Shown here one piece after another: positions 18,457 to 29,511 of a stretch of 44,266 nucleotides of DNA (positions within the stretch are counted from its first letter, which is position 1; each line of letters begins with the position of its first letter). The stretch covers positions 1 to 44,266 of the forward strand of contig JAUYAO010000011.1 in NCBI GenBank assembly GCA_030692565.1, in the 5' to 3' direction. This stretch comes from Nitrospira sp. (lineage in GTDB: Bacteria; Nitrospirota; Nitrospiria; Nitrospirales; Nitrospiraceae). The notes under the pieces were generated by a model. The model saw only the letters and a program-made list of their open reading frames with translations, searched no databases and was not told where the DNA came from. The translations under genes and the position numbers were made by a program.

Positions 18457-19182
18457 TTATGGACGGACTTCCAAACGATTGATGACTTTATCGACGCCGA
18501 ACACGCACCAGGCGTCGAATTCCGCCATCTCCTTCTGCGGTGCGGACGGCGCATCGCCTTCGAGGGTCACCACCGATTGCCGGGCGGCCACGCGGATACG
18601 TTCACCGTTTACGAATGGGTCTTTTTTTAAGACGATTCGCACGGCTTTCGCCATCTCCTCATCCGAGTCCGGTTGATCCGGGATCACTTCCATTCCGTTG
18701 ATGACATCGCGGCTGCCGGGCACCCACCAGGCCAGCACCCCGGCCAGGCGTTTCTGCGTGAGCCCGGTCACATGATCGTCGAGCAACACCACGCCCTCGT
18801 TCACGGACAGGCGAATAGCCCCGCGAGGTTCGCGGGTGACCTCCCGAACGGTTTCAAGCTGCTCTTTGCGAATCACCTGGATCGAACAATTCAGGAGGGA
18901 GGATTCCTGGAGCAATGCATCACGCACCGCATCCAGAATAGCCCCGTCCCCCATGCGAGTGGCGGGCGTCACGTGGAGACGATCCACGATTCCGGTCACT
19001 CCCGATACGGCGATCGCCAGTTCCATCGCCAGTTTCTTGGCGGCGATATGCTCCGCCTCGCCTTCCAGGGTGAGCACGCCGTCGGCAAATTCCATTGTCA
19101 CGGAATACTTGTGCAAATTGATGCGCGGCTCACGCTCCAAGGCCGCACGAACCTCTTTGAGGACTCTCTCCCGCTCCGACAT
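18457..19182 (-). CDS. Triple BON-domain protein
   Basis: This 241-residue protein consists of three BON-like repeats (about residues 5-70, 78-165 and 172-240). Each shows the pattern of a helix, a strand with a GVLTLEGEA-type turn and a V-x-G-V-x-x-V-x-N-x-L/I ending (e.g. GVTGIVDRLHV, GVDKVINRLEV). No signal peptide is seen, so it is probably cytoplasmic, unlike OsmY. BON domains bind membranes or ligands and occur in osmotic or general stress proteins. Start ATG 19182 has AAAGGAA seven bases upstream. It lies upstream of hsp20, which supports a stress-related role. Confidence 0.83.
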   Translation of the reverse strand: MSERERVLKEVRAALEREPRINLHKYSVTMEFADGVLTLEGEAEHIAAKKLAMELAIAVSGVTGIVDRLHVTPATRMGDGAILDAVRDALLQESSLLNCSIQVIRKEQLETVREVTREPRGAIRLSVNEGVVLLDDHVTGLTQKRLAGVLAWWVPGSRDVINGMEVIPDQPDSDEEMAKAVRIVLKKDPFVNGERIRVAARQSVVTLEGDAPSAPQKEMAEFDAWCVFGVDKVINRLEVRP

Positions 19183-19335
19183 CAACGATTCCTTTCATGG
19201 ACGTCACGCACTGGTCACTCCTCCGTAAAGCAACGGGAGTGCCATACCTAAGCTTCTCGCGAAACCGTTGATGATTCAGGTGATGCTGCGAGCGTGGCTG
19301 TATCACTCACGCTGAGAGCTCACGCGCCCTGTGGA

Positions 19336-19347
19336 CTAACTCCCCAG
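19336..19347 (-). promoter_or_regulatory. CTGGGGAGTTAG motif, copy 2
   Basis: This word is identical over 12 bases to the site at 13026-13037 and has the same orientation relative to the downstream gene. It lies about 155 bases upstream of the BON/Hsp20 genes. Confidence 0.35.
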
Positions 19348-19446
19348 TGACAGCGTTTCCATGCCGCAGAATGCGACGGTGAGGATAGGCCTATCGCCGG
19401 ATCGGGAACGCGGCGGCAGCGGATCAAAGCGATGAGTGTGCTCTTA

Positions 19447-20523
19447 TCAGAAACGGTTCAAGAGGATGGGCACCCGTCTGGATCCCCAGTGCCCCGGCTG
19501 TGCTTCGAACACACCGGCGCAAGGCGTCTGACAGAAACGACATGCCCCATCTTCCGTCACATTCCACGCACTCAGCTCATACCAATCCCGGACAATGAGC
19601 TGCTCGTAACAATGGTGGCAATAGGTGCTGCCGCCCTCTCCGTCCCGCACATTGCCTGTATAGGCGTACCGGATGCCGTTCTTCATGGCAATCCTGCGGG
19701 CCATGGTCAGCGTGCTCGCCGGCGTGGCTGGAATGTTGAGCATCTTATAGTCCGGATGAAAGCCGCTGAAATGGATCGGCACGTCTGGGCCAAGATGCTC
19801 CACCACCCACTGGGTCAGCCGTTCGATCTCGGCCTCGGAGTCGTTTTCACCCGGGATGACCAGGGTGGTGATTTCCAGCCACACCTTCGTGTGATGTTTG
19901 ATGTAGATCAGCGTGTCCAGGACCGGTTGCAGGCTCCCGCCACAGACCTGCTGGTAGAAGCGCTCGGTAAATCCCTTCAGGTCGACATTCGCCGCATCCA
20001 TGTAGCGGTAGAATTCTTCCCGCGGCTCATCGCAGACGTACCCGGCCGTCACGGCCACCGACTTGATGCCATGCTCGCGACAGGCCTGCGCCACGTCAAT
20101 CGCATATTCGTGGAAGATGATCGGATCATTGTAGGTATAGGCCACGGACCGGCACCCGAGTTTCGCTGCGGCGCGCGCGATCGTTTCCGGCGAAGCCTCA
20201 TCCGCCAAAGTATCCATCTCGCGGGATTTGCTCATGTCCCAGTTCTGACAGAACTTGCACGAGAGATTGCACCCGGCGGTTCCAAACGAAAGCACCGAGG
20301 TGCCGGGAAGAAAATGATGCAGCGGTTTCTTTTCAATCGGATCGACGCAAAACCCGCTGGATCGCCCATAGGTCGTGAGGACGATCTGATCCTGCTGCCG
20401 CGCCCGGACAAAACAAAGCCCTTGTTGTCCTTCTTGAAGGGTGCAATAGCGCGGACAGAGGTCGCACTGGATGCGCCCATCCTTCAGTTGATGCCAATAT
20501 TTCCTAGACACCACGGAGGTCAT
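19447..20523 (-). CDS. amrS: AmrS-type radical SAM protein (AmmeMemoRadiSam system)
   Basis: This 358-residue radical SAM protein matches the AmrS family, related to pyruvate formate-lyase activating enzymes. The SAM-cluster motif is Cys85-x3-Cys89-x2-Cys92 (GTAGCNLSCKFCQNW). An N-terminal cysteine set (C20, C23, C27, C37) and a C-terminal set (YCHHCYE, CRFCQTPC) suggest extra metal sites, and the SGFHPDYKM motif is typical. The usual partners AmrA (AMMECR1) and AmrB (Memo) are not in this window, and the reaction remains unknown. I chose ATG 20523; a GTG at 20538 adds five residues. Neither has a strong ribosome-binding site. Confidence 0.86.
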   Translation of the reverse strand: MTSVVSRKYWHQLKDGRIQCDLCPRYCTLQEGQQGLCFVRARQQDQIVLTTYGRSSGFCVDPIEKKPLHHFLPGTSVLSFGTAGCNLSCKFCQNWDMSKSREMDTLADEASPETIARAAAKLGCRSVAYTYNDPIIFHEYAIDVAQACREHGIKSVAVTAGYVCDEPREEFYRYMDAANVDLKGFTERFYQQVCGGSLQPVLDTLIYIKHHTKVWLEITTLVIPGENDSEAEIERLTQWVVEHLGPDVPIHFSGFHPDYKMLNIPATPASTLTMARRIAMKNGIRYAYTGNVRDGEGGSTYCHHCYEQLIVRDWYELSAWNVTEDGACRFCQTPCAGVFEAQPGHWGSRRVPILLNRF

Positions 20524-20675
20524 GACAACCAGTAGCACTCGTCGGTCACCCCAAGTTCCATGCCGGCATTATACCAGCGACACAGGCACACCAGTAGGTT
20601 GTTAAGACACCTTTTGAGCGCTCTAAGAAGTCACACCGGCAAGCAATCGATGAATGCGATGCAGCAAAACGTCAA

Positions 20676-20704
20676 TTGACACAGGATGAGGCTCAGTCTA
20701 TAAA
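20676..20704 (+). promoter_or_regulatory. Strong sigma70-type promoter of the arsR/exporter operon
   Basis: A perfect -35 TTGACA (20676-20681) is followed after 17 bases by TATAAA (20699-20704). The predicted transcription start is near 20711, about 30 bases before the arsR ATG. This is the best consensus promoter in the window, as expected for a gene whose expression is held down by a repressor. Confidence 0.75.
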
Positions 20705-20715
20705 GATTCCATTCT

Positions 20716-20727
20716 TTGCAACTTTGC
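20716..20727 (+). promoter_or_regulatory. Putative ArsR operator, copy 1
   Basis: TTGCAACTTTGC lies at the predicted transcription start of arsR. A near-copy (10 of 12 bases) occurs at 21102-21113, just upstream of the exporter gene. TTGCAA is itself palindromic. The operator role is inferred from position and recurrence. Confidence 0.45.
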
Positions 20728-20742
20728 ACCAAGTGGTCTTGT

Positions 20743-21084
20743 ATGTCTCACTTCAGATCGGACACGACACTGTTCGAGCACCACGCCGAAGTGTGCAAGA
20801 TTTTTTCGCATCCCAAGCGCCTTCAAATCATCGAGGCCCTCCGGCATAAAGAATTGACTGTCGGCGAGGTCGTTGATCATCTCAGCCTTCCCAAAGCCAA
20901 TGTCTCTCAGCACTTAGCGGTCCTGCGCCAGAAAAAGGTTGTCCTGACTCGCCGGGAAGGATTGAGCATTTTTTACCGAATCGCTAATCCCAAGATTATC
21001 CAGGCCTGCGACCTGATGCGGCAGGTGCTCGTCGAACAACTTGAAGAAGGGGAACGGCTCGCGAAGCGCCTGAAAAGGCGGTGA
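20743..21084 (+). CDS. ArsR/SmtB-family winged-helix repressor
   Basis: This 113-residue DNA-binding regulator has the ArsR fold: SHPKRLQIIEAL, the recognition helix region LPKANVSQHLAVLRQ (about residues 49-63) and the wing LTRREGLSIFYRI. The classical ELCVC metal box in the recognition helix is missing. Instead there is one cysteine near the first helix (Cys18, AEVCKIFSHP) and one in the C-terminal dimer helix (Cys89, IIQACDLMRQV). That suggests a thiol-based or non-classical sensor (inference). ATG 20743 is preferred over a TTG at 20716, which lies at the predicted transcription start. It is the first gene of an operon reaching at least to the outer-membrane barrel gene. Confidence 0.85.
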   Translation: MSHFRSDTTLFEHHAEVCKIFSHPKRLQIIEALRHKELTVGEVVDHLSLPKANVSQHLAVLRQKKVVLTRREGLSIFYRIANPKIIQACDLMRQVLVEQLEEGERLAKRLKRR

Positions 21085-21101
21085 CTTTTTTTGACTCATA
21101 G

Positions 21102-21113
21102 TTGCAAGATTGC
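21102..21113 (+). promoter_or_regulatory. Putative ArsR operator, copy 2
   Basis: TTGCAAGATTGC differs from 20716-20727 at two central positions. It lies 18 bases after the arsR stop codon and about 43 bases before the exporter start codon. Confidence 0.4.
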
Positions 21114-21155
21114 GCGTCCAGTTGACTAGCCGGACATGATGAGGGAGGGCCATCG

Positions 21156-23480
21156 ATGAACAGGTCTGAAACGCCGGCTCCCACGTGGTCGGCGCGCGTG
21201 GTGGACGCGACCCTCCGGCTGTGCGTGGACTTCCCGCGGCTGACGATCAGCGTAATCCTGCTTCTCACCGTCTGGGCCATCCTCCAACTGCCCAAGATCA
21301 CCACCGACACGGACCCTGAAAACATGCTGGAGCCGGACTCGCCCGTGCGGGTGTCCCACGAAGCCACGAAGCGAACCTTCGGGATTCATGAGCTCATCGT
21401 CGTGGGTTTCGAGAGCGAGCGGGATCTTTTCAACGTCGACGATCTCACCAAGCTCTTCCGGATCAACCGCGAGATCCTGAATATTCCAGGAGTCATCATC
21501 CCCGACGTCTTAAGCCTCGTGACCACCGACACGATGCGGAAGAGCGGGGACACCCTGGAGATCAGAAAACTCTTGGAACGCCCACCGCAGACGCAAGAGG
21601 ACGCTCGGCAGCTCAAGGACACCCTGCTTGGCAATCCACTGTTCCGGGAAAAACTCATCTCCCAGGATGGGCAGCGGGTGGCCTTCTACATCCCGATTGA
21701 GCGGAAAGAGATCGCGGCGCGGGTCACCAGGGAGATTCAGGCGCTGGTCGATACAGAGCCTGGAATCACGGCCAAGATCGCCGGCCTTCCCATGGCAGAG
21801 ATGGTGTTCGGGGAGCAGATGTTTCTGCTGATGGGCGTGCTGTCTCCACTGGTGATGCTGGTCATCACCGTCGGTCTGTGGATATTCTTCAAGGACTGGC
21901 GGCTCATCGTGGCCCCGTTACTCGTCTCGATGCTGAGCGTGCTCTGGACCATGGGGCTGTTGATCGGCCTCGGCTATCCGGTCCACATCATGAGCTCCAT
22001 GATCCCGATCTTTCTGATGGTCACCGGCCTAGCCGACGGGATTCACATTCTCAGCCAGTTCTACGACGTCTATCCCCGCTATGGAGACAAACGCACGGCC
22101 ATCCTCGAAACGATGAAAGAACTATATTCGCCGGTGCTGTACACCTCCTATACCGTGATGGCCGGGTTTGGGTCGCTGATGCTCGTCAACATTCCGCCGG
22201 TCCGGATTTTCGGCCTGTTTGTGGCCATCGGGGTCTTTGCCGCCTGGATCCTGACCGTGACGTTCCTGCCGGCGTTCATGATGCTGCTCAATGAGGAGAC
22301 ACTCAAGCGGCATTGGAAGGGTGAGGTGGCCACTGGCGGCCTGCTTGTCAGAGTGGCTAATTGGCTGGGGCGCCTGGGGATGGCCAGGAGTTGGGGGGTG
22401 CTTCTCGCCGGCATCGCGGTGCTGGCGCTGGCAGGCTACGGAATGGAGCAAAACCGGGTGAATGACGATCCGGTGAAGTGGTTCAAAGCCTCAAGTCCGA
22501 TCCGGCAAGCCAGCCGGCTCATGAACCAGCAATTCGGCGGCACCTACATGGCCTACCTCGTGGCGGAGGCGGATGCGCCAGACGCCGCGACGAGACCGGA
22601 GGTACTCCGTTATCTCGACGAGCTTCAACGGGAGATCGGCCAGGACCCCAGGGTCGGCAAAACCACCTCACTCGCCGACATCCTCCGGTGGATCAACCGA
22701 GTCCTGACCGGCAATGATGAGCTTCCGCGTAGCCAGGAGCTGGCCGCGCAGTATCTCTTTCTCTATCTCTCCTCCGGCGGCTCGCCGGACACCTTGGACA
22801 ATTTCGTGGACTACGGATACCAGCGGCTCAATATCTGGCTGCAACTGAAGACCGGGGACAACCAGGACATGATCGAAGTCATGGAGCGAGTCACGCGCTA
22901 TGTGACGGCGCACCCGCTCCCGGGGGTCCGTGTCGAGATGACCGGCCCGACGTACGTCAACGTGGTGTGGCAGCAGGTGATGGTCACCGGCATGCTGGGC
23001 TCCTTTGCGGGCTCAGTCGTGACGGTCCTGCTGATCATGGCGATCGAGTTCCGCTCGCTGCTCTGGGCGCTGATCGGAGTGGTCCCGCTGTTGATCACCA
23101 TCTTCGTCTCATACGGTCTGCTGTTTTTCATCGGCAAAGAGATCGATATGCCCATCGCGGTGTGCTCCTCGCTGGCCCTCGGGATCGGTGTGGACTTTGC
23201 CATCCACTTTATCTTCCGATTCCGGGAACGCTACCGCCAGGAACGGGATCTCCAGAAAAGCTTGCAGTGGACCTTCGGCGAACCGGCGGTGGGGATTCTC
23301 CGGAACGCGCTCCTTCTTTTCCTGGGGTTTGCCGTGATGCTCGCAGCACCGCTGGGTCCCTACGTGACGGTGGGCGCCTTCGCCGCCATTGACATGTTGG
23401 TGGGCGCTCTTGCCACATTGCTGCTGCTGCCGGCCCTGATCGTGCTGCTCCAACGAGTGATTCTGAAGAAGGAGGTGTGA
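21156..23480 (+). CDS. MMPL/RND-superfamily exporter (HAE3-like)
   Basis: This 774-residue membrane protein has the duplicated RND layout. TM1 (about residues 33-47) is followed by a periplasmic domain and a five-helix block (about 220-385), and the arrangement is then repeated (second block about 610-770). Each block carries an acidic residue in its fourth helix, Asp294 (LADGIHI) and Asp680 (GVDFAIHF), in the place of the proton-relay residues of MmpL/RND pumps. The size fits the HAE3/MMPL branch, which moves lipids and other hydrophobic molecules. It is followed one base later by a LolA-like gene and then an outer-membrane barrel, suggesting a transport path across the envelope. It is presumably controlled by the ArsR protein encoded upstream. 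Confidence 0.9.
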   Translation: MNRSETPAPTWSARVVDATLRLCVDFPRLTISVILLLTVWAILQLPKITTDTDPENMLEPDSPVRVSHEATKRTFGIHELIVVGFESERDLFNVDDLTKLFRINREILNIPGVIIPDVLSLVTTDTMRKSGDTLEIRKLLERPPQTQEDARQLKDTLLGNPLFREKLISQDGQRVAFYIPIERKEIAARVTREIQALVDTEPGITAKIAGLPMAEMVFGEQMFLLMGVLSPLVMLVITVGLWIFFKDWRLIVAPLLVSMLSVLWTMGLLIGLGYPVHIMSSMIPIFLMVTGLADGIHILSQFYDVYPRYGDKRTAILETMKELYSPVLYTSYTVMAGFGSLMLVNIPPVRIFGLFVAIGVFAAWILTVTFLPAFMMLLNEETLKRHWKGEVATGGLLVRVANWLGRLGMARSWGVLLAGIAVLALAGYGMEQNRVNDDPVKWFKASSPIRQASRLMNQQFGGTYMAYLVAEADAPDAATRPEVLRYLDELQREIGQDPRVGKTTSLADILRWINRVLTGNDELPRSQELAAQYLFLYLSSGGSPDTLDNFVDYGYQRLNIWLQLKTGDNQDMIEVMERVTRYVTAHPLPGVRVEMTGPTYVNVVWQQVMVTGMLGSFAGSVVTVLLIMAIEFRSLLWALIGVVPLLITIFVSYGLLFFIGKEIDMPIAVCSSLALGIGVDFAIHFIFRFRERYRQERDLQKSLQWTFGEPAVGILRNALLLFLGFAVMLAAPLGPYVTVGAFAAIDMLVGALATLLLLPALIVLLQRVILKKEV

Positions 23481-23481
23481 C

Positions 23482-24279
23482 GTGAATGGGAAGCTTCTGA
23501 TGGCGAGATGGGCAATGGCGCTGTTCCTGAGTCTCATCCCGGGCGCCGCGTTGGCCGAGGATCCGGCCTCGCTTGTTCGGCAATCCCAAGCAGCCTTCCA
23601 CTATGCCGGCATAGACCTCAAGGCCCGCGTGAAGATGACATTGCTCACAAAAGAGGGCCAGCAGCGTCTCCGGGACCTGATGATGCTCCGGAAGAACGAG
23701 GCAGGGGGCAACCAGCGGTACTTTCTGTACTTTCACGGTCCGGCGGATGTGCGAGGCACCGTATTTATGGTCTATAAGTACCCCGACCGGGAGGATGACC
23801 GCTGGCTGTTCATTCCAGCGCTCAACCTGGTCCAGCGCGTCGCCGCACGTGACAGCCGATCCAGCTTCGTGGGCTCCGACTTCTCCTATGAGGATATTTC
23901 GGGGCGTGATGTAGAAGCCGATACCCACAAGGTGCTTCGAGTTGAGGCCCTTGGAAGCCAGCAGACCGTAGTGATTGAGAGCGTGCCGGCGCGGGAGGCC
24001 GACTATGCCCGGAAACTCACCTGGATTGACCAGCCCTCCCATCTACCGCTGAAGGAAGAGTACTACGACGTGCAAGGCGCTCTGTATAAGGTTTTCACGG
24101 CCGATGAGATCCGGGACGTGCAGGGAGTGCCCACGATCATGAAGCGCACGATGACCAACGTGAAGACAGGGCATAAGACCGAGGTGGTGTTTGAGAGCGT
24201 GGCCTACAACGTCGGCCTGGGTGACGACATCTTTACCGAGCGAACGCTGCGACGGCCTCCCGAGAAATGGCTCCGGTGA
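23482..24279 (+). CDS. LolA-like outer-membrane lipoprotein-sorting family protein
   Basis: This 265-residue periplasmic protein has a signal peptide (residues 1-25, cleavage after AALA). The mature part matches the LolA-like family that accompanies MMPL exporters (PF17131 type, from recall). Features are the repeated beta-strands KARVKMTLLTKEG, YFLYFHGPADVRGTVFMVYKY, RWLFIPALNLVQRVAARD and SFVGSDFSYEDISGRD. The fold is a half-barrel that shields lipid chains, so it may carry the exporter's cargo. It starts at GTG 23482, one base after the MMPL stop codon, with AGGAGG just upstream inside the MMPL coding end. Tight coupling to the MMPL and barrel genes supports a shared function. Confidence 0.83.
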   Translation: MNGKLLMARWAMALFLSLIPGAALAEDPASLVRQSQAAFHYAGIDLKARVKMTLLTKEGQQRLRDLMMLRKNEAGGNQRYFLYFHGPADVRGTVFMVYKYPDREDDRWLFIPALNLVQRVAARDSRSSFVGSDFSYEDISGRDVEADTHKVLRVEALGSQQTVVIESVPAREADYARKLTWIDQPSHLPLKEEYYDVQGALYKVFTADEIRDVQGVPTIMKRTMTNVKTGHKTEVVFESVAYNVGLGDDIFTERTLRRPPEKWLR

Positions 24280-24292
24280 GAGGGAGTGAGGC

Positions 24293-25555
24293 ATGGCGAT
24301 GCGTGGTGTGTTCCTGGGTGTGGCGCTGCTCAGTATGGGCGTTGGTATCCTCCCGCTCCGTGTGCAGGCCGAGGAACTCCTCATCCAGGGATTTCTCCAG
24401 GCCAACTACTCGGCGCGCCTCACAGGGCTGCAACCTCCAACCTCTGAAGGCGGCGACTTCCTGTTTGGGGAGGAACGGCTCCAACTGCGGCTGGATAAAT
24501 CCGGCGAGAAAGGGCGGCTGTTTATTCGAACCGATTTCTTCCACGATGCCGTCGCCAATCGACCTGATCTCGAAGTGCGGGAAGCGTACGTGGATACCAG
24601 CGTGGGGGGATCTGATCTGCGGATCGGACGCCAGCTCCTGATCTGGGGCACCGGCGACTACCTGTTCATCAATGATGTCTTTGCCAAGAACTGGGGCGCG
24701 TTCTTTTCCGGAAGACCCGTCGAGTATCTCCGCGTGCCACAGGACGCGGCGAAGCTGGATCTGAGTGCGGGAGGGATATCCGCCGAAATCGTCGCGATGC
24801 CGTTCTTTCAAGCCGACCAGCTCCCCTCACGCGACCGGTTTTATCAGTTTGATCCATTTCCGGGTGCGGCGAGGACCACGCAAGAGCCTGGGATGAGGTA
24901 CGGGAATACGGAGTGGGCCGCCAGGATTTATGGGAGCGCGGGGGGATTTGATACGGCACTGTATCTCTATCACGGCTTTTTTCGCATGCCGGCGCTCCAG
25001 CCAAACAGCATGACGACCCCGACTCTCGTGAACGAGATATTCCCCCGGTTGGCCGTCTATGGGGCGAGCGCCAGAGGGAACGCGTTGGGAGGTGTCGTGA
25101 GCGCAGAGATCGGCTACTACGACTCGCTCAATGATCAATCCGGCCACAATCCGTCCATTCCAAACAGTTCGTTCCGCTATCTCGTGGGGTATCAACGGCA
25201 ACCCTGGGAGGATTTCACGGTCGGGCTGCAATACTATGGCGAACTGATGTCCCACTATGATGCGTACCGGGCCACGCTGCCATCCGGGTTTCCGGTTCAG
25301 GACCAGCACCGGCAGCTCATGACGCTCCGGCTCACGCAACTCTTCTGGCATCAGACCCTGCGGGTGGGCCTCTTCGCCTTCTACAGCCCTACGGATCAGG
25401 ACTACTACTTGATTCCCGAAATCCGGTATAGCATCAGCGATAATCTGTGGGTGTCAGCGACCGGGAATATTTTCGGAGGACGCCGCCCCACGACGTTCTT
25501 TGGCCAGTTGGACGCGAACGACAATCTGGCGGTGACGATGCGGTATGAATTCTGA
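24293..25555 (+). CDS. Outer-membrane beta-barrel protein (DUF1302-like)
   Basis: This 420-residue protein has a signal peptide (cleavage after VQA near residue 25) and a long series of alternating amphipathic strands. It begins LLIQGFLQANYSARL and ends VTMRYEF with a terminal Phe. The segment GSDLRIGRQLLIWGTGDYLFINDVF resembles DUF1302/porin-like proteins found beside RND exporters. I infer that it is the outer-membrane part of the export path. There is no plug or TonB box. GGGAG precedes ATG 24293, and the gap from the LolA-like gene is 13 bases, so they form one operon. Confidence 0.75.
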   Translation: MAMRGVFLGVALLSMGVGILPLRVQAEELLIQGFLQANYSARLTGLQPPTSEGGDFLFGEERLQLRLDKSGEKGRLFIRTDFFHDAVANRPDLEVREAYVDTSVGGSDLRIGRQLLIWGTGDYLFINDVFAKNWGAFFSGRPVEYLRVPQDAAKLDLSAGGISAEIVAMPFFQADQLPSRDRFYQFDPFPGAARTTQEPGMRYGNTEWAARIYGSAGGFDTALYLYHGFFRMPALQPNSMTTPTLVNEIFPRLAVYGASARGNALGGVVSAEIGYYDSLNDQSGHNPSIPNSSFRYLVGYQRQPWEDFTVGLQYYGELMSHYDAYRATLPSGFPVQDQHRQLMTLRLTQLFWHQTLRVGLFAFYSPTDQDYYLIPEIRYSISDNLWVSATGNIFGGRRPTTFFGQLDANDNLAVTMRYEF

Positions 25556-25582
25556 CGCAGATCGTGTGGGAGGCAGCCGCAG

Positions 25583-26242
25583 ATGCCCGTCGTGACGGTC
25601 TTTGACCAGCAGACGCAGCAATATGACGACTGGTTCGATGGGCACGAGCCGGTCTATCAGGCCGAACTCGCAGCACTCCGGAAGTTTGTTCCTGCCACTG
25701 GCATGGGCATCGACGTCGGGGTGGGGACCGGGCGCTTTGCCCTGCCGCTCGGCGTCCAGTTTGGGCTTGACCCGAGCCGCGCGATGCTCCAAGTCGCCCG
25801 AAGGCGTGGCATCCAAGTCTGCCAGGCCATAGGCGAGCGGATGCCCTTCCGCGATCGGCAATTTGATCTGGTCCTGCTCGTCACCGTCATCTGTTTCGTG
25901 GACGATGTCCCGGCCTTGTTCCGGGAACTCAGGCGGGTATTGAAGACAGACGGACAACTCATCATCGGGTTCATCAACCGGGAGAGTGAGCGTGGCAGGT
26001 TGTACGAAGCGCGCAAGGACACGAGCACGTTTTACCGAGATGCGCGGTTCTATTCGGTCGCGGACGTGGCTGACCGGGTGGAAGAAGCTGGCTTCGGTTC
26101 GCTGCGATTCTGTCAGACCCTGTTAGGTGATCCCAGTGAGAGTGCAACAAAGAACCTGGAGGTTCGCGACGGCTCCCGCGATGGTGCGTTTGTCGTCCTC
26201 AGTGCCAGGAAAGTTGAACAGGCTAGGGGCGAGGGGCAATAG
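25583..26242 (+). CDS. Class I SAM-dependent methyltransferase
   Basis: This 219-residue Rossmann-fold methyltransferase has motif I GIDVGVGTGRFALPLG (about residues 42-57), an acidic loop after strand 2 (FGLDPSRAML), motif FDLVLLVTVICFVDD and VLKTDGQLIIGFI. This is the UbiE/Methyltransf_11 type. The substrate is unknown; in this operon it could modify the exported compound or detoxify the inducer. It has no arsenite-methyltransferase cysteine set. GGGAGG lies upstream of ATG 25583, 27 bases after the barrel gene. Its last codons (QARGEGQ) lie inside a low-complexity intergenic repeat, so the C-terminal tail is probably not conserved. Confidence 0.83.
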   Translation: MPVVTVFDQQTQQYDDWFDGHEPVYQAELAALRKFVPATGMGIDVGVGTGRFALPLGVQFGLDPSRAMLQVARRRGIQVCQAIGERMPFRDRQFDLVLLVTVICFVDDVPALFRELRRVLKTDGQLIIGFINRESERGRLYEARKDTSTFYRDARFYSVADVADRVEEAGFGSLRFCQTLLGDPSESATKNLEVRDGSRDGAFVVLSARKVEQARGEGQ

Positions 26243-26317
26243 GCTATGGGCACGGGAGCACAGCTTCAACCACTTGCCTCTAGCCTCGGGCCTCTCGCCT
26301 TCTTCAAGGAAGTGAGG
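26221..26317. repeat. GC-rich imperfect inverted repeat of short GGCTAG/GGCGAG words
   Basis: Purine-rich words (AGGCTAGGGGCGAGGGGC) are answered downstream by pyrimidine-rich complements (GCCTCTAGCCTCGGGCCTCT). Together they make an imperfect hairpin between the methyltransferase and DsrE genes. The methyltransferase stop codon falls inside it. Confidence 0.5.
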
Positions 26318-26323
26318 TGAACT

Positions 26324-26677
26324 ATGAAGATTCTCTTTATTCTGAACGAGGCTCCGTATGGGTCCGAGAACGTATACAACGCACTCCGGCTGGCCATGAA
26401 GTTGCAACAGGAGCATGCTGAGGCGGAGGTGCGGGTGTTTCTGATGGCAGATGCTGTGAACGCAGCCCTGCCTGGCCAAACCACGCCGCAGGGTTACTAC
26501 AACATCGAACGGATGCTTAAAGCGATCATCCATAAGCAAGGGCAAATCAAGGCGTGCGGAACCTGCGTGGAGGCGCGGGGACTGGACAAACTGGCCCTGA
26601 TCGAAGGCATCGCGGCCAGCACGATGAGCCAGCTGGCCCAATGGGTCATGGACTCGGACAAAGTGCTGACATTCTGA
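26324..26677 (+). CDS. DsrE/YchN-family protein
   Basis: This 117-residue protein has the DsrE-like fold. The first strand KILFILNEAPYGSENVYNALRLAMKLQQE is followed by VRVFLMADAVNAAL and KACGTCVEARGLD. The Cys-Gly-Thr-Cys pair at about residues 78-81 corresponds to the reactive cysteine region of DsrE/YchN-type persulfide carriers. Many relatives occur in sulfur-handling operons, but others have no proven role. The start is ATG 26324, with GGAAGTGAGG upstream. It follows the methyltransferase on the same strand after the hairpin at 26221-26317, so it may be the last gene of the ArsR-controlled operon or have separate expression. Confidence 0.85.
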   Translation: MKILFILNEAPYGSENVYNALRLAMKLQQEHAEAEVRVFLMADAVNAALPGQTTPQGYYNIERMLKAIIHKQGQIKACGTCVEARGLDKLALIEGIAASTMSQLAQWVMDSDKVLTF

Positions 26678-26765
26678 GTCTCTACTGCGCCGGCAAACCA
26701 GCTTCAATAGGCGAAGTCTACCTTGAGACATCAGACAGGTGAGCTATTTACCGACTGGTCGAGCC

Positions 26766-27827
26766 ATGTTAACGATTGACGGGTCCCGCTATTCCGGCAG
26801 TGGTTCGATCGTCAGGCAGGCAGTCGCCTTCGCCGCCCTGACTGGCCGGGCCATCCATGTGGTCCAGGCCCGCGCAAAGCGGGAGAAGCCAGGATTACGG
26901 CCGCAACATATCCGGGTTGTGGAAGCCATCGCCGAACTCGTCAACGGTCACACGGAGGGGCTGACGCAAGGCTCGCAGGAATTCACGTTCCATCCCGGCC
27001 CTCTCAAAACCGGACGACATTATCATTGGGACATCGGCTCAGCCGGCTCGACGACCATGCTTGCCCTCGGCATCCTCCCGGTCCTGGCCTTCGCGGCTTC
27101 ACCGATCACCGTCGAACTGCGCGGCGGCCTCTTCCAGGATTTTGCCCCGTCCTTCTTTCATCTCCAACACGTGCTCCTCCCGATCCTGCGCCAGATGGGA
27201 CTTCATGCCGAAGTTGAGATAGGCCGTCCCGGCTACCTGCCCCGCGGCGACGGCATACTCAGACTCGTAGTCACACCCCTCAGCAAGCCCTTGCAGGCCA
27301 TCGCCAGAGAGGATGCAGGCCCGGTGATACGCTTGTGGGGGATCGCGCTCTCTTCGCATCTGGAAGAACGGCACGTGAGCCGCCGGATGGCGGACGCGGC
27401 ACAAGATACTCTCGCCGAGGCTGGCCATCGGGCCGATATCGACATTCTGAACGACACAGAGTCATTGCAGCGCGGCGCCGCGCTGGCGCTCTTTGCCGAT
27501 GAAGAAGGCGCGGTGCGGCTCGGGGCGGACCGGGCGGGCGCCTTGCGAAGAACCGCAGAGTCCATCGGCAAGCGCGCCGCCGGACAGTTGCTTGAAGATC
27601 TCACCTCCGGCGCGACGCTGGACCGGTTCGCCGCGGATCAGATCATCCCCTTTGCGGCCTTGGCAGAAGGCGACAGCCGGTTCATCATACCCAGCGTGAC
27701 CGATCACGTCCTGACCAGCGCCTGGCTGGCAGAGACATTTCTCGGGGCCCGCGTCACCATCGACGGACAGCGGATGGCAATCCACGGAGTGGGATTCTGG
27801 CCGAATCATAATCGCACGCGAAGTTAG
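26766..27827 (+). CDS. rtcA: RNA 3'-terminal phosphate cyclase
   Basis: RtcA converts RNA 3'-phosphate ends to 2',3'-cyclic phosphates through an adenylated histidine. This 353-residue protein shows the expected order: MLTIDGSRYSGSGSIVRQAV at the N-terminus, EKPGLRPQH, IGSAGSTTMLALGILPVLAF, GGLFQDFAPSFFHLQH and the C-terminal SVTDHVLTSAWLAETFL. In the last, His314 aligns with the adenylated His of E. coli RtcA. I chose ATG 26766 because family members begin close to this motif. No rtcB or rtcR is nearby. The next gene encodes a Mut7-C RNase, 17 bases away, so this is probably an RNA end-processing pair. Confidence 0.93.
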   Translation: MLTIDGSRYSGSGSIVRQAVAFAALTGRAIHVVQARAKREKPGLRPQHIRVVEAIAELVNGHTEGLTQGSQEFTFHPGPLKTGRHYHWDIGSAGSTTMLALGILPVLAFAASPITVELRGGLFQDFAPSFFHLQHVLLPILRQMGLHAEVEIGRPGYLPRGDGILRLVVTPLSKPLQAIAREDAGPVIRLWGIALSSHLEERHVSRRMADAAQDTLAEAGHRADIDILNDTESLQRGAALALFADEEGAVRLGADRAGALRRTAESIGKRAAGQLLEDLTSGATLDRFAADQIIPFAALAEGDSRFIIPSVTDHVLTSAWLAETFLGARVTIDGQRMAIHGVGFWPNHNRTRS

Positions 27828-27844
27828 GCAGGGCACTCCTCCCT

Positions 27845-28357
27845 ATGGACATGCGACAGCCCAATCAGCCGGTCATACGTTTCATGGCCGATGCCATGCT
27901 CGGCCGCCTGGCTCGCTGGCTGCGCATACTCGGCTATGACACGGCCTACGACAAGGCGATCACGGACGAGGCCTTAGTCGAACGGGCCCTACGCGAGAAC
28001 CGATGGCTGCTCACCCGCGATCGTCGCCTGGTCCTACGGAAGCTTCTCCGCGGCCGTCATACGCTCCTTGCCGCTGATGACGTCGACGGCCAGTTGCGCC
28101 AACTCCACCGGGACCTCGCGATAGACCTTCACCTGACTCACCAACGAGCGTATCGCTGTGCGGACTGCAATGTCGCCATCACCGCCATCTCGCATGACGA
28201 AGCTGCTTCTCTCGTTCCTCCCTTTGTCGCGGAGCAGTATCGAGCATTTCTCCAATGCCCTCAGTGCCGCCGCGTGTTTTGGCCCGGCACCCACTGGCAA
28301 GATCTCGATTGTCGCCTCACGGCCATCAAAACGCACAGCGTGGACAAGCGGCCATGA
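27845..28357 (+). CDS. Mut7-C domain RNase with zinc ribbon (DUF82)
   Basis: This 170-residue protein matches the Mut7-C family (PF01927). The PIN-like core is FMADAMLGRLARWLRILGYD (with Asp16), ITDEALVERAL and LLTRDRRLV (Asp in TRDR). It is followed by a zinc ribbon, Cys105-x2-Cys108 and Cys138-x2-Cys141 (CPQCRRVFWPGTHW). Family members are predicted RNases; the acidic residues needed for metal binding are present. It directly follows rtcA and its stop codon overlaps the next start as ATGA. A role in trimming or cleaving RNA whose ends RtcA modifies is a reasonable inference. Confidence 0.88.
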   Translation: MDMRQPNQPVIRFMADAMLGRLARWLRILGYDTAYDKAITDEALVERALRENRWLLTRDRRLVLRKLLRGRHTLLAADDVDGQLRQLHRDLAIDLHLTHQRAYRCADCNVAITAISHDEAASLVPPFVAEQYRAFLQCPQCRRVFWPGTHWQDLDCRLTAIKTHSVDKRP

Positions 28358-28719
28358 ATAACGACAAGCCACCGCTGAGCATCCCGATCCTGCTGCCGCT
28401 GCTGCTCTTTCTGCTGTTGCTGGCGATGCTCCCGTTTGTGTTCGGGCCACTATTCACCGTGGCCTTGATCAAGCTCAACCTCGATTCGACGACCGCGCTG
28501 CTCATTGTGATCGGGATGTTCCTCGGCAGTCCGGTCAATATCCCGGTGAAACGGATTCCCCGGACGGAGTCGATGGCGGCAGACCCGCTGGCCGTGTTCG
28601 GATTGGCCGGTCGATGGCCTTCGACCATGCGTGTCCGCCGGGAAACGATCATCGCCGTCAATGTCGGAGGCTGCGTGATTCCGGTCGCACTGGCGGTGTA
28701 TGAAATATTCCATGTATGA
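28354..28719 (+). CDS. DUF1614 membrane protein, N-terminal part (split gene)
   Basis: These 121 residues correspond to the first half of a DUF1614 protein. The sequence opens with a hydrophobic helix (PILLPLLLFLLLLAMLPFVFG), then a second helix leading to GSPVNIPVKRIPR, then VNVGGCVIPVALAVYEIF. The frame ends early at TGA 28717 because a 16-bp tandem duplication (28697-28728) shifts it. Removing one unit joins it without a break to the gene part at 28700, giving about 232 residues, the normal family size. It overlaps the RNase stop codon as ATGA. Confidence 0.75.
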   Translation: MNNDKPPLSIPILLPLLLFLLLLAMLPFVFGPLFTVALIKLNLDSTTALLIVIGMFLGSPVNIPVKRIPRTESMAADPLAVFGLAGRWPSTMRVRRETIIAVNVGGCVIPVALAVYEIFHV

Positions 28720-28728
28720 GATATTCCA
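28697..28728 (+). repeat. 16-bp tandem duplication inside the DUF1614 gene
   Basis: TGTATGAAATATTCCA (28697-28712) is followed immediately by TGTATGAGATATTCCA (28713-28728), with one difference. Sixteen is not a multiple of three, so the second unit causes the frameshift that divides the gene. Confidence 0.92.
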
Positions 28729-29068
28729 CCTGGTGGCGGCAGGCCTGCAACCGCTCTCCGGATTGCTCCTGGCGATCTTCGTGAACACCATGGTCTGCTA
28801 CTGGATGGCGCAACCGATCGAAGGGATCGACATCGCGATGCCGGGGCTCTTTCCTCCCCTGATCGCCGCGATGAGCGCCTTGCTCCTGGTGCCGGACCAG
28901 GCCCCACCTGTCGCCTTCGCCGCCGGCCTGCTGGGCCCGCTCATCGGCGCGGATCTGCTCCACCTTCGCGACGTGTCCAAAATCTCCACCGGCATCGCCA
29001 GCATCGGCGAAGCCGGCACGTTCGACGGGATCGTGTTGTCGGGAATTGTGGCGGCGTATCTGGCGTAG
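28700..29068 (+). CDS. DUF1614 membrane protein, C-terminal part (split gene)
   Basis: These 122 residues are the second half of the DUF1614 protein: FVNTMVCYWMAQPIEG, MPGLFPPLIAAMSALLLVP, GLLGPLIGADLLHL and a final GIASIGEAGTFDGIVLSGIVAAYLA. All are hallmarks of the conserved end of the family. The reading frame begins at ATG 28700, within the duplicated 16-bp unit, and overlaps the first part by 20 bases, so translational re-initiation could still yield two fragments. No ribosome-binding site precedes this ATG or the one at 28712. The protein would be an inner-membrane protein of unknown role. Confidence 0.72.
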   Translation: MKYSMYEIFHLVAAGLQPLSGLLLAIFVNTMVCYWMAQPIEGIDIAMPGLFPPLIAAMSALLLVPDQAPPVAFAAGLLGPLIGADLLHLRDVSKISTGIASIGEAGTFDGIVLSGIVAAYLA

Positions 29069-29165
29069 GACGGGATGACTCGATCCATGCCCCTTCGATC
29101 ACGTTGACAGCGGCGGAGGGTTGGAGGGTCGGCCCGGATGACACCGTCGGCGGCCGAAAGTCCCT

Positions 29166-29366
29166 TTACTTCAATCCCCTGTAGGGATCATCGAACCTGG
29201 CACCGCACTCGCGGCACTCGACTTTACCCGTCCACTTGCCGGCTCTGGTCATGACGTTGTCGATCAGCCGGCTATGGGTGCAGGCGGCCGCACTCGTCGC
29301 TTCGCGGCTCAGCTGAGTGGCCGCGCTGTCCATACTCACCTCCGGACTTCCTGAAGCCTCTTTCAT
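29166..29366 (-). CDS. Small zinc-ribbon-like protein, 66 aa
   Basis: This short protein has a hydrophilic N-terminus rich in Ser, Ala and Glu. A C-terminal half follows with a Cys-x-His pair (ACTHSRLI) and a CxxC pair (VECRECGARFDDPYRGLK), a plausible zinc-binding site. GGAGGGG lies five bases upstream of ATG 29366. The frame stays open further upstream, but that part is low-complexity. No named family is recognised. It lies downstream of a small winged-helix-like gene on the same strand, at the edge of a signalling gene cluster, and converges with the DUF1614 gene. Confidence 0.6.
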   Translation of the reverse strand: MKEASGSPEVSMDSAATQLSREATSAAACTHSRLIDNVMTRAGKWTGKVECRECGARFDDPYRGLK

Positions 29367-29511
29367 TTTTTCCCCTCCGTATCGCCGCCTCGACGCAGGT
29401 CCCCCTGTCCACTCACCGCCCCCCCCGCCAGCCGTCGCTTGAACGAAGGCCCTGGATCGACAAAGGCCGCCACTCTCCTCGCTCGACTTCCCGCCGGCCT
29501 GATGGACCATG

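Follow-up and report, generated by a model that had tools for sequence, protein, structure and literature searches.

The window analysed here is the whole 44,266-nucleotide stretch of contig JAUYAO010000011.1 from the Nitrospira sp. assembly GCA_030692565.1. Between positions 20743 and 26677 it carries six genes on the forward strand, encoding in this order an ArsR-type regulator, an MMPL/HAE3-like pump, a LolA-like protein, a DUF1302-type barrel, an S-adenosylmethionine (SAM)-dependent methyltransferase and a YchN-like DsrE protein. The operon is real and its order is conserved, and we consider it probable that it encodes a sulfur-linked envelope transporter. The architecture of pump, carrier and barrel is already known; what is new is the link to sulfur and the regulators that come with it. 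The tie between this pump subfamily and the handling of sulfane sulfur is strong for the family and thinner in the window itself. In the open-licence literature we found no paper that links an MMPL-type pump to sulfur. Sulfide-oxidizing cells form zero-valent sulfur, which hardly dissolves in water; to our knowledge, no route for its passage through the cell envelope is established.

The link to sulfur was found by surveying 245 Nitrospirota genomes, 45 of which (the window's own, G087 and G004 included) hold a full or nearly full relative of the pump with at least 38% identity. Counts refer to 42 relatives outside the window's family, with pump identities of 38-48% and up to 8 kb of DNA fetched on each side; two further loci that were retrieved (L134 and L135) do not enter the counts, and eight genomes whose matches of 37-49% are fragmentary or split (G393, G394, G400, G412, G468, G480, G491, G500) were left aside. 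As controls served 33 paralogous MMPL loci of 21-32% identity, which we chose ourselves, G403 and G497 each contributing two; more than 3.5 kb is available on both sides of 27 of these loci. Neighbours were counted within 7 kb by hidden Markov models (HMMs) built from recurrent neighbours, at E values up to 1e-4. A gene of the DsrE family accompanies 35 of the 42 relatives, an ArsR gene 34, a gene for a flavoprotein resembling sulfide:quinone oxidoreductase (SQR) 31 and a DsrH gene 28, and each of these is found at 0 of the 33 control loci. The same holds for methyltransferase (12/42), TauE (11/42), YedE-type (8/42), SelD (6/42) and rhodanese (5/42) genes. Altogether, 37 of the 42 relatives have a sulfur gene beside them. 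Fisher p values for ArsR, DsrE and SQR lie below 1e-11 and are indicative only, the loci being related. The neighbours share the strand of the pump for 33 of 33 SQR hits, 28 of 28 dsrH hits and 47 of 48 ArsR hits. When the threshold was relaxed to E 5, the controls gained just one weak flavoprotein, and among loci with more than 3.5 kb on both sides an ArsR or sulfur gene is seen in 31 of 32. The typical order is arsR-dsrE-dsrE-dsrH-sqr-dsrE2-MMPL-LolA-barrel, and three adjacent dsr-type genes occur in many of the Nitrospirota relatives. In one or two representatives each, Pfam backs the assignments as DsrE, DsrH, DrsE_2, Pyr_redox_2, TauE, Sulf_transp and YgaP-like membrane domain; the NCBIfam scores for TusC/DsrF, TusB/DsrH and DsrE2 are below cut-off, and the subunit names are thus approximate. 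The initial annotation of this DNA had rightly noticed the ArsR partner. It had also called ArsR control and the enzyme pair unusual for such an exporter, and this view does not survive the counts for ArsR and DsrE given above. The comparison of gene neighbourhoods that it had proposed finds the order conserved in many genomes, and not the lack of conservation that was to speak against an operon.

The same grouping appears in a tree of the pumps. This tree was calculated with FastTree from 111 of 113 rows found (L016 and L021 were too short), gives local support only and came with long-branch warnings. One clade with a support of 100 unites 68 pumps, 62 of which lie near an ArsR or sulfur gene, compared to 1 of 43 outside the clade. 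Another search matched 11 of 246 genomes, of which just the two with at least 40% identity (G111 and G350) were examined; a further one matched 53 of 398 genomes, and from these we retrieved 20 loci, comprising the best matches and those that were split. Eleven loci from Poribacteria, Bipolaricaulota, actinobacterial lineages, Alteromonadales, Sessilibacter, Sedimentisphaerales and Chloroflexi include eight with ArsR and nine with ArsR or a sulfur gene. In Poribacteria (L013) and Acidimicrobiia (L022), the pump has in its vicinity both an SQR-like gene and a fusion of ArsR and rhodanese. ArsR, but neither LolA nor barrel, is present at the three actinobacterial loci (L017, L022, L133), an arrangement that would suit cells lacking an outer membrane. 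Of three Pseudomonadota loci with 41-43% identity, two hold ArsR and one holds rhodanese. Among 17 more distant Pseudomonadota loci, an ArsR or sulfur gene is found in six and a YgaP-like membrane gene in ten. This small gene stands beside the trio of LolA, barrel and pump at L182, L183, L185, L186, L191-L195 and L197; it is also found next to the trio outside the sulfur-linked clade, and its assignment to PF11127 was made for one representative of its cluster.

A number of observations weigh against a transporter for sulfur. The HMMs used for counting derive from the relatives' own neighbours, and the label SQR is loose, with one Nitrospirota representative reaching 100.7 bits against a cut-off of 525. 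For six of the 68 pumps in the clade neither ArsR nor a sulfur gene is seen nearby, L091 and L098 among them, which have less than 400 bp of upstream DNA. The 11 loci from other phyla hold a sulfur gene in just three cases, LolA in seven and the barrel in five, and in Ilyobacter the trio adjoins selD-yedF, a selenium set. In the window itself DsrE is the sole sulfur-type gene, and the nearest SQR-like gene of its genome is 31% identical and located on another contig. The window's own family comprises seven loci, several of them cut by contig ends, with ArsR in six, DsrE in three and SQR in one. The ArsR protein of the window lacks the canonical cysteine pair at positions 31 and 97, with its spacing of 66 residues, and has C18 and C89 instead; C89 is replaced by F or Y in six of 22 ArsR proteins of the window type. 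Finally, the sulfur neighbours could mean a shared regulon and not a shared cargo. Our answer to the kinship of the loci and to the bias of the HMMs is the set of controls, together with the recurrence of the link in several phyla.

A shared regulon is what a second explanation would make of these data. The trio might be a general exporter of lipids or hydrophobic organic toxicants, similar to AmeABCD of Castellaniella defragrans, with the sulfur genes merely co-regulated through a signal that both have in common, namely stress by sulfide or electrophiles. Its architecture equals that of AmeA, AmeB and AmeD, and deletion of ameABCD is reported to reduce tolerance to monoterpenes and to increase Nile Red accumulation (PMC6394551). 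LolA and barrel genes also accompany paralogous pumps that have no sulfur genes nearby (25 and 16 of the 33 control loci, compared to 41 and 40 of the 42 relatives), and at L010 a fatty-acid-hydroxylase-type gene adjoins ArsR. Against this reading speak the absence of DsrE, SQR and ArsR from all 33 paralogue loci, while a sulfur gene accompanies most relatives, and the recurrence of the sulfur link in several phyla with differing kinds of regulator. We regard general efflux as unlikely.

The closest relatives of the operon are found in metagenome-assembled genomes of Nitrospira. Nitrospira RCA (L011) has all six genes of the window and then, after DsrE, a gene for an SQR-like flavoprotein whose best NCBIfam match is type III SQR, with 253.8 bits and thus under the cut-off of 525. 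L010 holds the first five genes before its contig ends, and L009 and L016 are likewise cut by contig ends. A further locus of the family is L132 (G076:C138). Compared with window positions 20743-26677, its proteins are 85% (ArsR), 79% (LolA), 80% (barrel), 73% (methyltransferase) and 63% (DsrE) identical, but its pump only 40%, and in the tree the two pumps occupy separate parts of a single clade. Thus, the pump alone seems to have been swapped in place while its partners were kept. We take this exchange to mean that both types of pump may serve the same partners. A membrane protein of the fatty-acid-hydroxylase type is encoded next to ArsR and pump in L010 (7632-8450) and also in L026 (210-899); the L010 protein matches the ornithine lipid hydroxylase OlsE with 83.1 bits, under the cut-off.

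The regulator of the window (20743-21084, forward strand, 113 amino acids, with Cys18 and Cys89) is an ArsR/SmtB-type protein with scores over cut-off for PF01022 (46.4 bits) and NF033788 (85.3 bits), and it matches the winged helix of the BigR structure 3pqj with an E value of 1.7e-10. Several kinds of ArsR adjoin the pump relatives, and their cysteines were counted in an alignment of 68 rows, window included. In the window type, C18 is present in 22 of 22 proteins and C89 in 16 of 22, one ArsR-rhodanese fusion having been set aside. Another kind, with four cysteines, occurs at 26 loci. Fusions of ArsR with rhodanese, a label that was assigned by eye, carry the loop YCRGPYC and lie near the pump at L012, L013, L022 and L127, in three of these four cases with an SQR-like gene nearby. 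Two cysteines exactly 66 residues apart are found in seven regulators beside Pseudomonadota relatives (L018, L020, L178, L180, L193-L195). It is the spacing in the ArsR of Sessilibacter corallicola C21, a culturable carrier of the trio, and in sHdrR of Hyphomicrobium (Cys50 and Cys116). The authors of PMC12423496 describe such a pair as common to SqrR, BigR, YgaV and HlyU and report that characterized members form a tetrasulfide bridge upon contact with sulfane sulfur donors; they also warn that many sHdrR-like proteins of sulfur oxidizers are without the pair. The likeness of our regulators to SqrR, BigR and sHdrR as described there thus lies in the ArsR/SmtB fold and, for the seven Pseudomonadota loci, in the cysteine pair, while the window protein differs by its Cys18 and Cys89. 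As a canonical SqrR-type sensor the latter was rejected: it fails the cysteine test and reaches 62.3 bits with the BigR model NF040642, under 155. Sulfur sensing through C18 and C89 is our proposal. Control of the operon by ArsR is likewise inferred, as is export of any compound at all.

In the mechanism that we favour, reactive sulfur such as sulfide-derived persulfide or polysulfide would modify the cysteines of ArsR and lift repression. The MMPL pump, presumably driven by protons, would then take hydrophobic zero-valent sulfur from the inner membrane or the periplasm; the cargo might be a polysulfane, or S8 and its oligomers, possibly on an organic group. The LolA-like protein would shield this cargo on its way across the periplasm and the barrel would release it, while DsrE with its CGTC motif might handle sulfane sulfur in the cytoplasm. 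We place this complete scheme, an Ame-type exporter for hydrophobic zero-valent sulfur that is induced by reactive sulfur, slightly on the doubtful side of an even call. Gene content, folds, conserved order and the link of the pump family to SQR, DsrE, rhodanese and ArsR were computed directly; from these we infer regulation by sulfur in this organism, the direction of transport and the cargo. A wider claim, which we put forward tentatively and hold to be somewhat improbable in its full extent, is that of a dedicated and widespread system through which zero-valent sulfur, as S8 or polysulfanes, would pass both membranes and leave the cell. It would have its own sulfur-sensing repressors, would serve sulfide-oxidizing or sulfate-reducing Nitrospirota and would have been retained for detoxification in Nitrospira. 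Should this prove true, sulfur export in sulfate reducers, sulfide oxidizers and disproportionators could be tested through these genes; the recently described DsrEFH type II proteins would have a possible partner, and stress by reactive sulfur in nitrifying Nitrospira would have a marker.

The metabolism of the hosts bears on the direction of transport. A dsrA gene over cut-off is present in 36 of the 42 genomes with a pump relative, compared to 105 of 245 Nitrospirota genomes overall; of the 42, only G366 and the five members of a single family (f18) lack it. It might therefore be that the trio works inward and takes up elemental sulfur or polysulfide for SQR, DsrEFH and Dsr, with the barrel as an uptake porin and the carrier bringing sulfur to the inner membrane. 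The YedE-type genes in eight of the 42 loci would agree with this, as would the model of the barrel, which matches OprD/OccK-type channels and MOMP, tied with the export channel AlgE. Channels of the OprD/OccK type have a role in uptake. Against import speak the pump model, which matches RND exporters and among them the sterol protein NCR1, and the precedent of Ame, which is an efflux system. In addition, neither the genome of the window nor the five f18 genomes have dsrA over cut-off, and yet they keep the trio. In f18 (L094, L096-L099) little of the cluster is left but the trio: three of the five loci have ArsR, one has a methyltransferase and one a DsrE gene, somewhat like the window. The trio thus outlasts the Dsr pathway. 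This agrees better with export or detoxification than with a role in supplying that pathway, but is an argument and not a proof. We consider import improbable. A search of six genomes for the ammonia monooxygenase gene amoA found it in G087, G098 and G076, three relatives that carry the pump of the operon; no amoA was found in G004, G105 or the genome of the window.

The methyltransferase (25583-26242, forward strand, 219 amino acids) is a class I SAM-dependent enzyme (PF08241, 70.8 bits). The initial annotation had suggested a methylated hydrophobic or a sulfur-containing compound as cargo, and it is the sulfur option that stands. A methylated sulfur compound, for example a methyl polysulfane made by this enzyme from persulfide delivered by DsrE, is an idea encouraged by the absence of methyltransferase genes from the control loci, by their presence in five of the seven loci of the window's family and by their position between LolA and barrel in several loci. 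However, no methyltransferase was found in 30 of the 42 relatives, and no Pfam, NCBIfam or structure match of the window's enzyme names a substrate; the closest solved structure, 1vlm, is named just SAM-dependent methyltransferase. A methylated cargo thus seems to us quite improbable. As an arsenite methyltransferase the enzyme was rejected (26.6 bits against a cut-off of 263). This score, along with the weak match of ArsR to the metal sensor CmtR (40.3 bits, below the cut-off of 150, the one test of metal sites made here), also disfavours a role in metalloid handling, in which ArsR and methyltransferase, or selD and yedF, would mark the efflux of arsenic or selenium. The selD genes at six of the 42 loci and the Ilyobacter arrangement point in that direction, but selD over cut-off was found in only 3 of 13 genomes examined, and not in those of the window, G087, G004, G076 and G098, which weakens selenium as the main role. 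We rate such a function as highly improbable.

Sulfur handling is represented in the window by its DsrE protein (26324-26677, forward strand, 117 amino acids; PF02635, 82.8 bits). It matches YchN (1jx7) with an E value of 3.4e-31 and keeps both cysteines of the CxTC motif, here CGTC. A set of dsrE, dsrF and dsrH does not occur in the operon, which has a single DsrE. On a plasmid of the cultured Ilyobacter polytropus (L200, 3158-11556) the trio, in the order LolA, barrel, pump, follows genes for selD, yedF and DUF3343, and the C-terminal half of the YedF protein has the same CGTC motif as the DsrE of the window.

The three-layer set of pump, carrier and barrel is sound. As the initial annotation had proposed, there is one component for each layer of the envelope, and families and models agree on this as well as on the resemblance to MMPL/DUF1329/DUF1302 sets. 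The pump (21156-23480, forward strand, 774 amino acids) scores 152.8 bits with PF03176, over cut-off; its best NCBIfam match is TIGR00921 (HAE3), with 230.3 bits under the cut-off of 351.9. Its model (mean predicted local distance difference test, pLDDT, 86.5) matches the resistance-nodulation-division (RND) proteins AcrD, CmeB, MmpL4/5, Dispatched and NCR1 with Z scores of 41-43. The LolA-like periplasmic carrier (23482-24279, forward strand, 265 amino acids) is over cut-off for PF17131 (193.7 bits) and for PF07044/DUF1329 (35.9 bits), and its solved relatives 9tp6, 3bk5, 4z48 and 3buu are named just lipoprotein-sorting or uncharacterized. The outer-membrane beta-barrel (24293-25555, forward strand, 420 amino acids) passes PF06980 with 25.1 bits at a cut-off of 23.2, and its AlphaFold model (pLDDT 79.5) matches MOMP, OprD/OccK and AlgE barrels nearly tied, with Z scores of about 20-22.

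From ArsR to DsrE, the genes are separated by gaps of 71, 1, 13, 27 and 81 nucleotides. A direct pattern search placed a promoter-like site, TTGACA-17-TATAAA, at 20676-20704 on the forward strand. This near-consensus pair, which the initial annotation had called a strong promoter, has one match in the whole window and none in 100 shuffles, but the four closest loci that were aligned (L009, L010, L011, L132) do not share it ahead of their arsR genes. A generic promoter and terminator scan of 19000-29500 gave one promoter-like and eight terminator-like sites, with no clear excess over shuffles; it skipped the site at 20676 because it demands T at the last -10 position. The arsR operator could not be fixed, the five upstream regions being alignable only over a short stretch near the start codon. 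The 81-nucleotide gap before DsrE holds a strong GC-rich hairpin (26226-26301, ends approximate, forward strand) without an evident U-tract; the stretch 26195-26323 folds at -55.2 kcal/mol (z -2.74). A second copy of its 5' arm was not found in the window. This hairpin might be a repeat element, or it might divide the transcript in two, and co-transcription of DsrE is therefore not assured. Downstream of DsrE follow genes for RtcA (26739) and a Mut7-C protein (27845), which we do not count as parts of the operon because L011 has its SQR-like gene after DsrE instead. No RNA families or tRNAs were found in the window. A gene for an AmmeMemoRadiSam radical SAM enzyme (19447-20538) is divergent from arsR and neighbours arsR in L011 too, but not in L010.

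Among known systems, the hopanoid transporter HpnN and BstA, by its model name a sterol transporter, are similar to the pump as MMPL/HAE3-type RND proteins with hydrophobic cargo. The window pump is far under their curated cut-offs and was rejected as either of them (103.8 and 71.0 bits against 751.85 and 1100 for HpnN; 22.1 bits against 1400 for BstA). The DsrE protein shares its DsrE-type sequence and two-cysteine motif with YchN of E. coli (1jx7) and, in YedF, with the C-terminal half; neither of these two is known to have a role in export. The type II DsrEFH genes, placed with tusA and yeeE in a 2026 paper (PMC13293266), belong to a YTD cluster that shares with the loci of the pump relatives the SQR, DsrE/DsrH-type and YedE/YeeE-type neighbours and has Nitrospirota among its hosts; unlike this set, the window operon has a single YchN-like DsrE. 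A term search of the main text of PMC13293266 returned no MMPL, RND, LolA, exporter, ArsR or outer membrane, and the main texts of PMC13047784 and PMC12998232 likewise returned no MMPL, RND, LolA, exporter or ArsR. The nearest characterized system that we found is AmeABCD. As described in PMC6394551, AmeA is a DUF1302 protein, AmeB belongs to the DUF1329/LolA superfamily and AmeD is an HAE3 pump, and the effects of the ameABCD deletion, less tolerance to monoterpenes and more accumulation of Nile Red, support a role in the efflux of hydrophobic compounds. Both systems thus encode together an HAE3 pump, a periplasmic protein of the LolA superfamily and a DUF1302 outer-membrane protein. Ame differs in lying in a monoterpene island and in having a fourth protein, AmeC (COG4447); Pfam and NCBIfam reveal no such second periplasmic protein among the six operon genes. 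The set in the window, in turn, has a shorter LolA-like protein and adds to the shared core ArsR, DsrE and the sulfur genes around its relatives.

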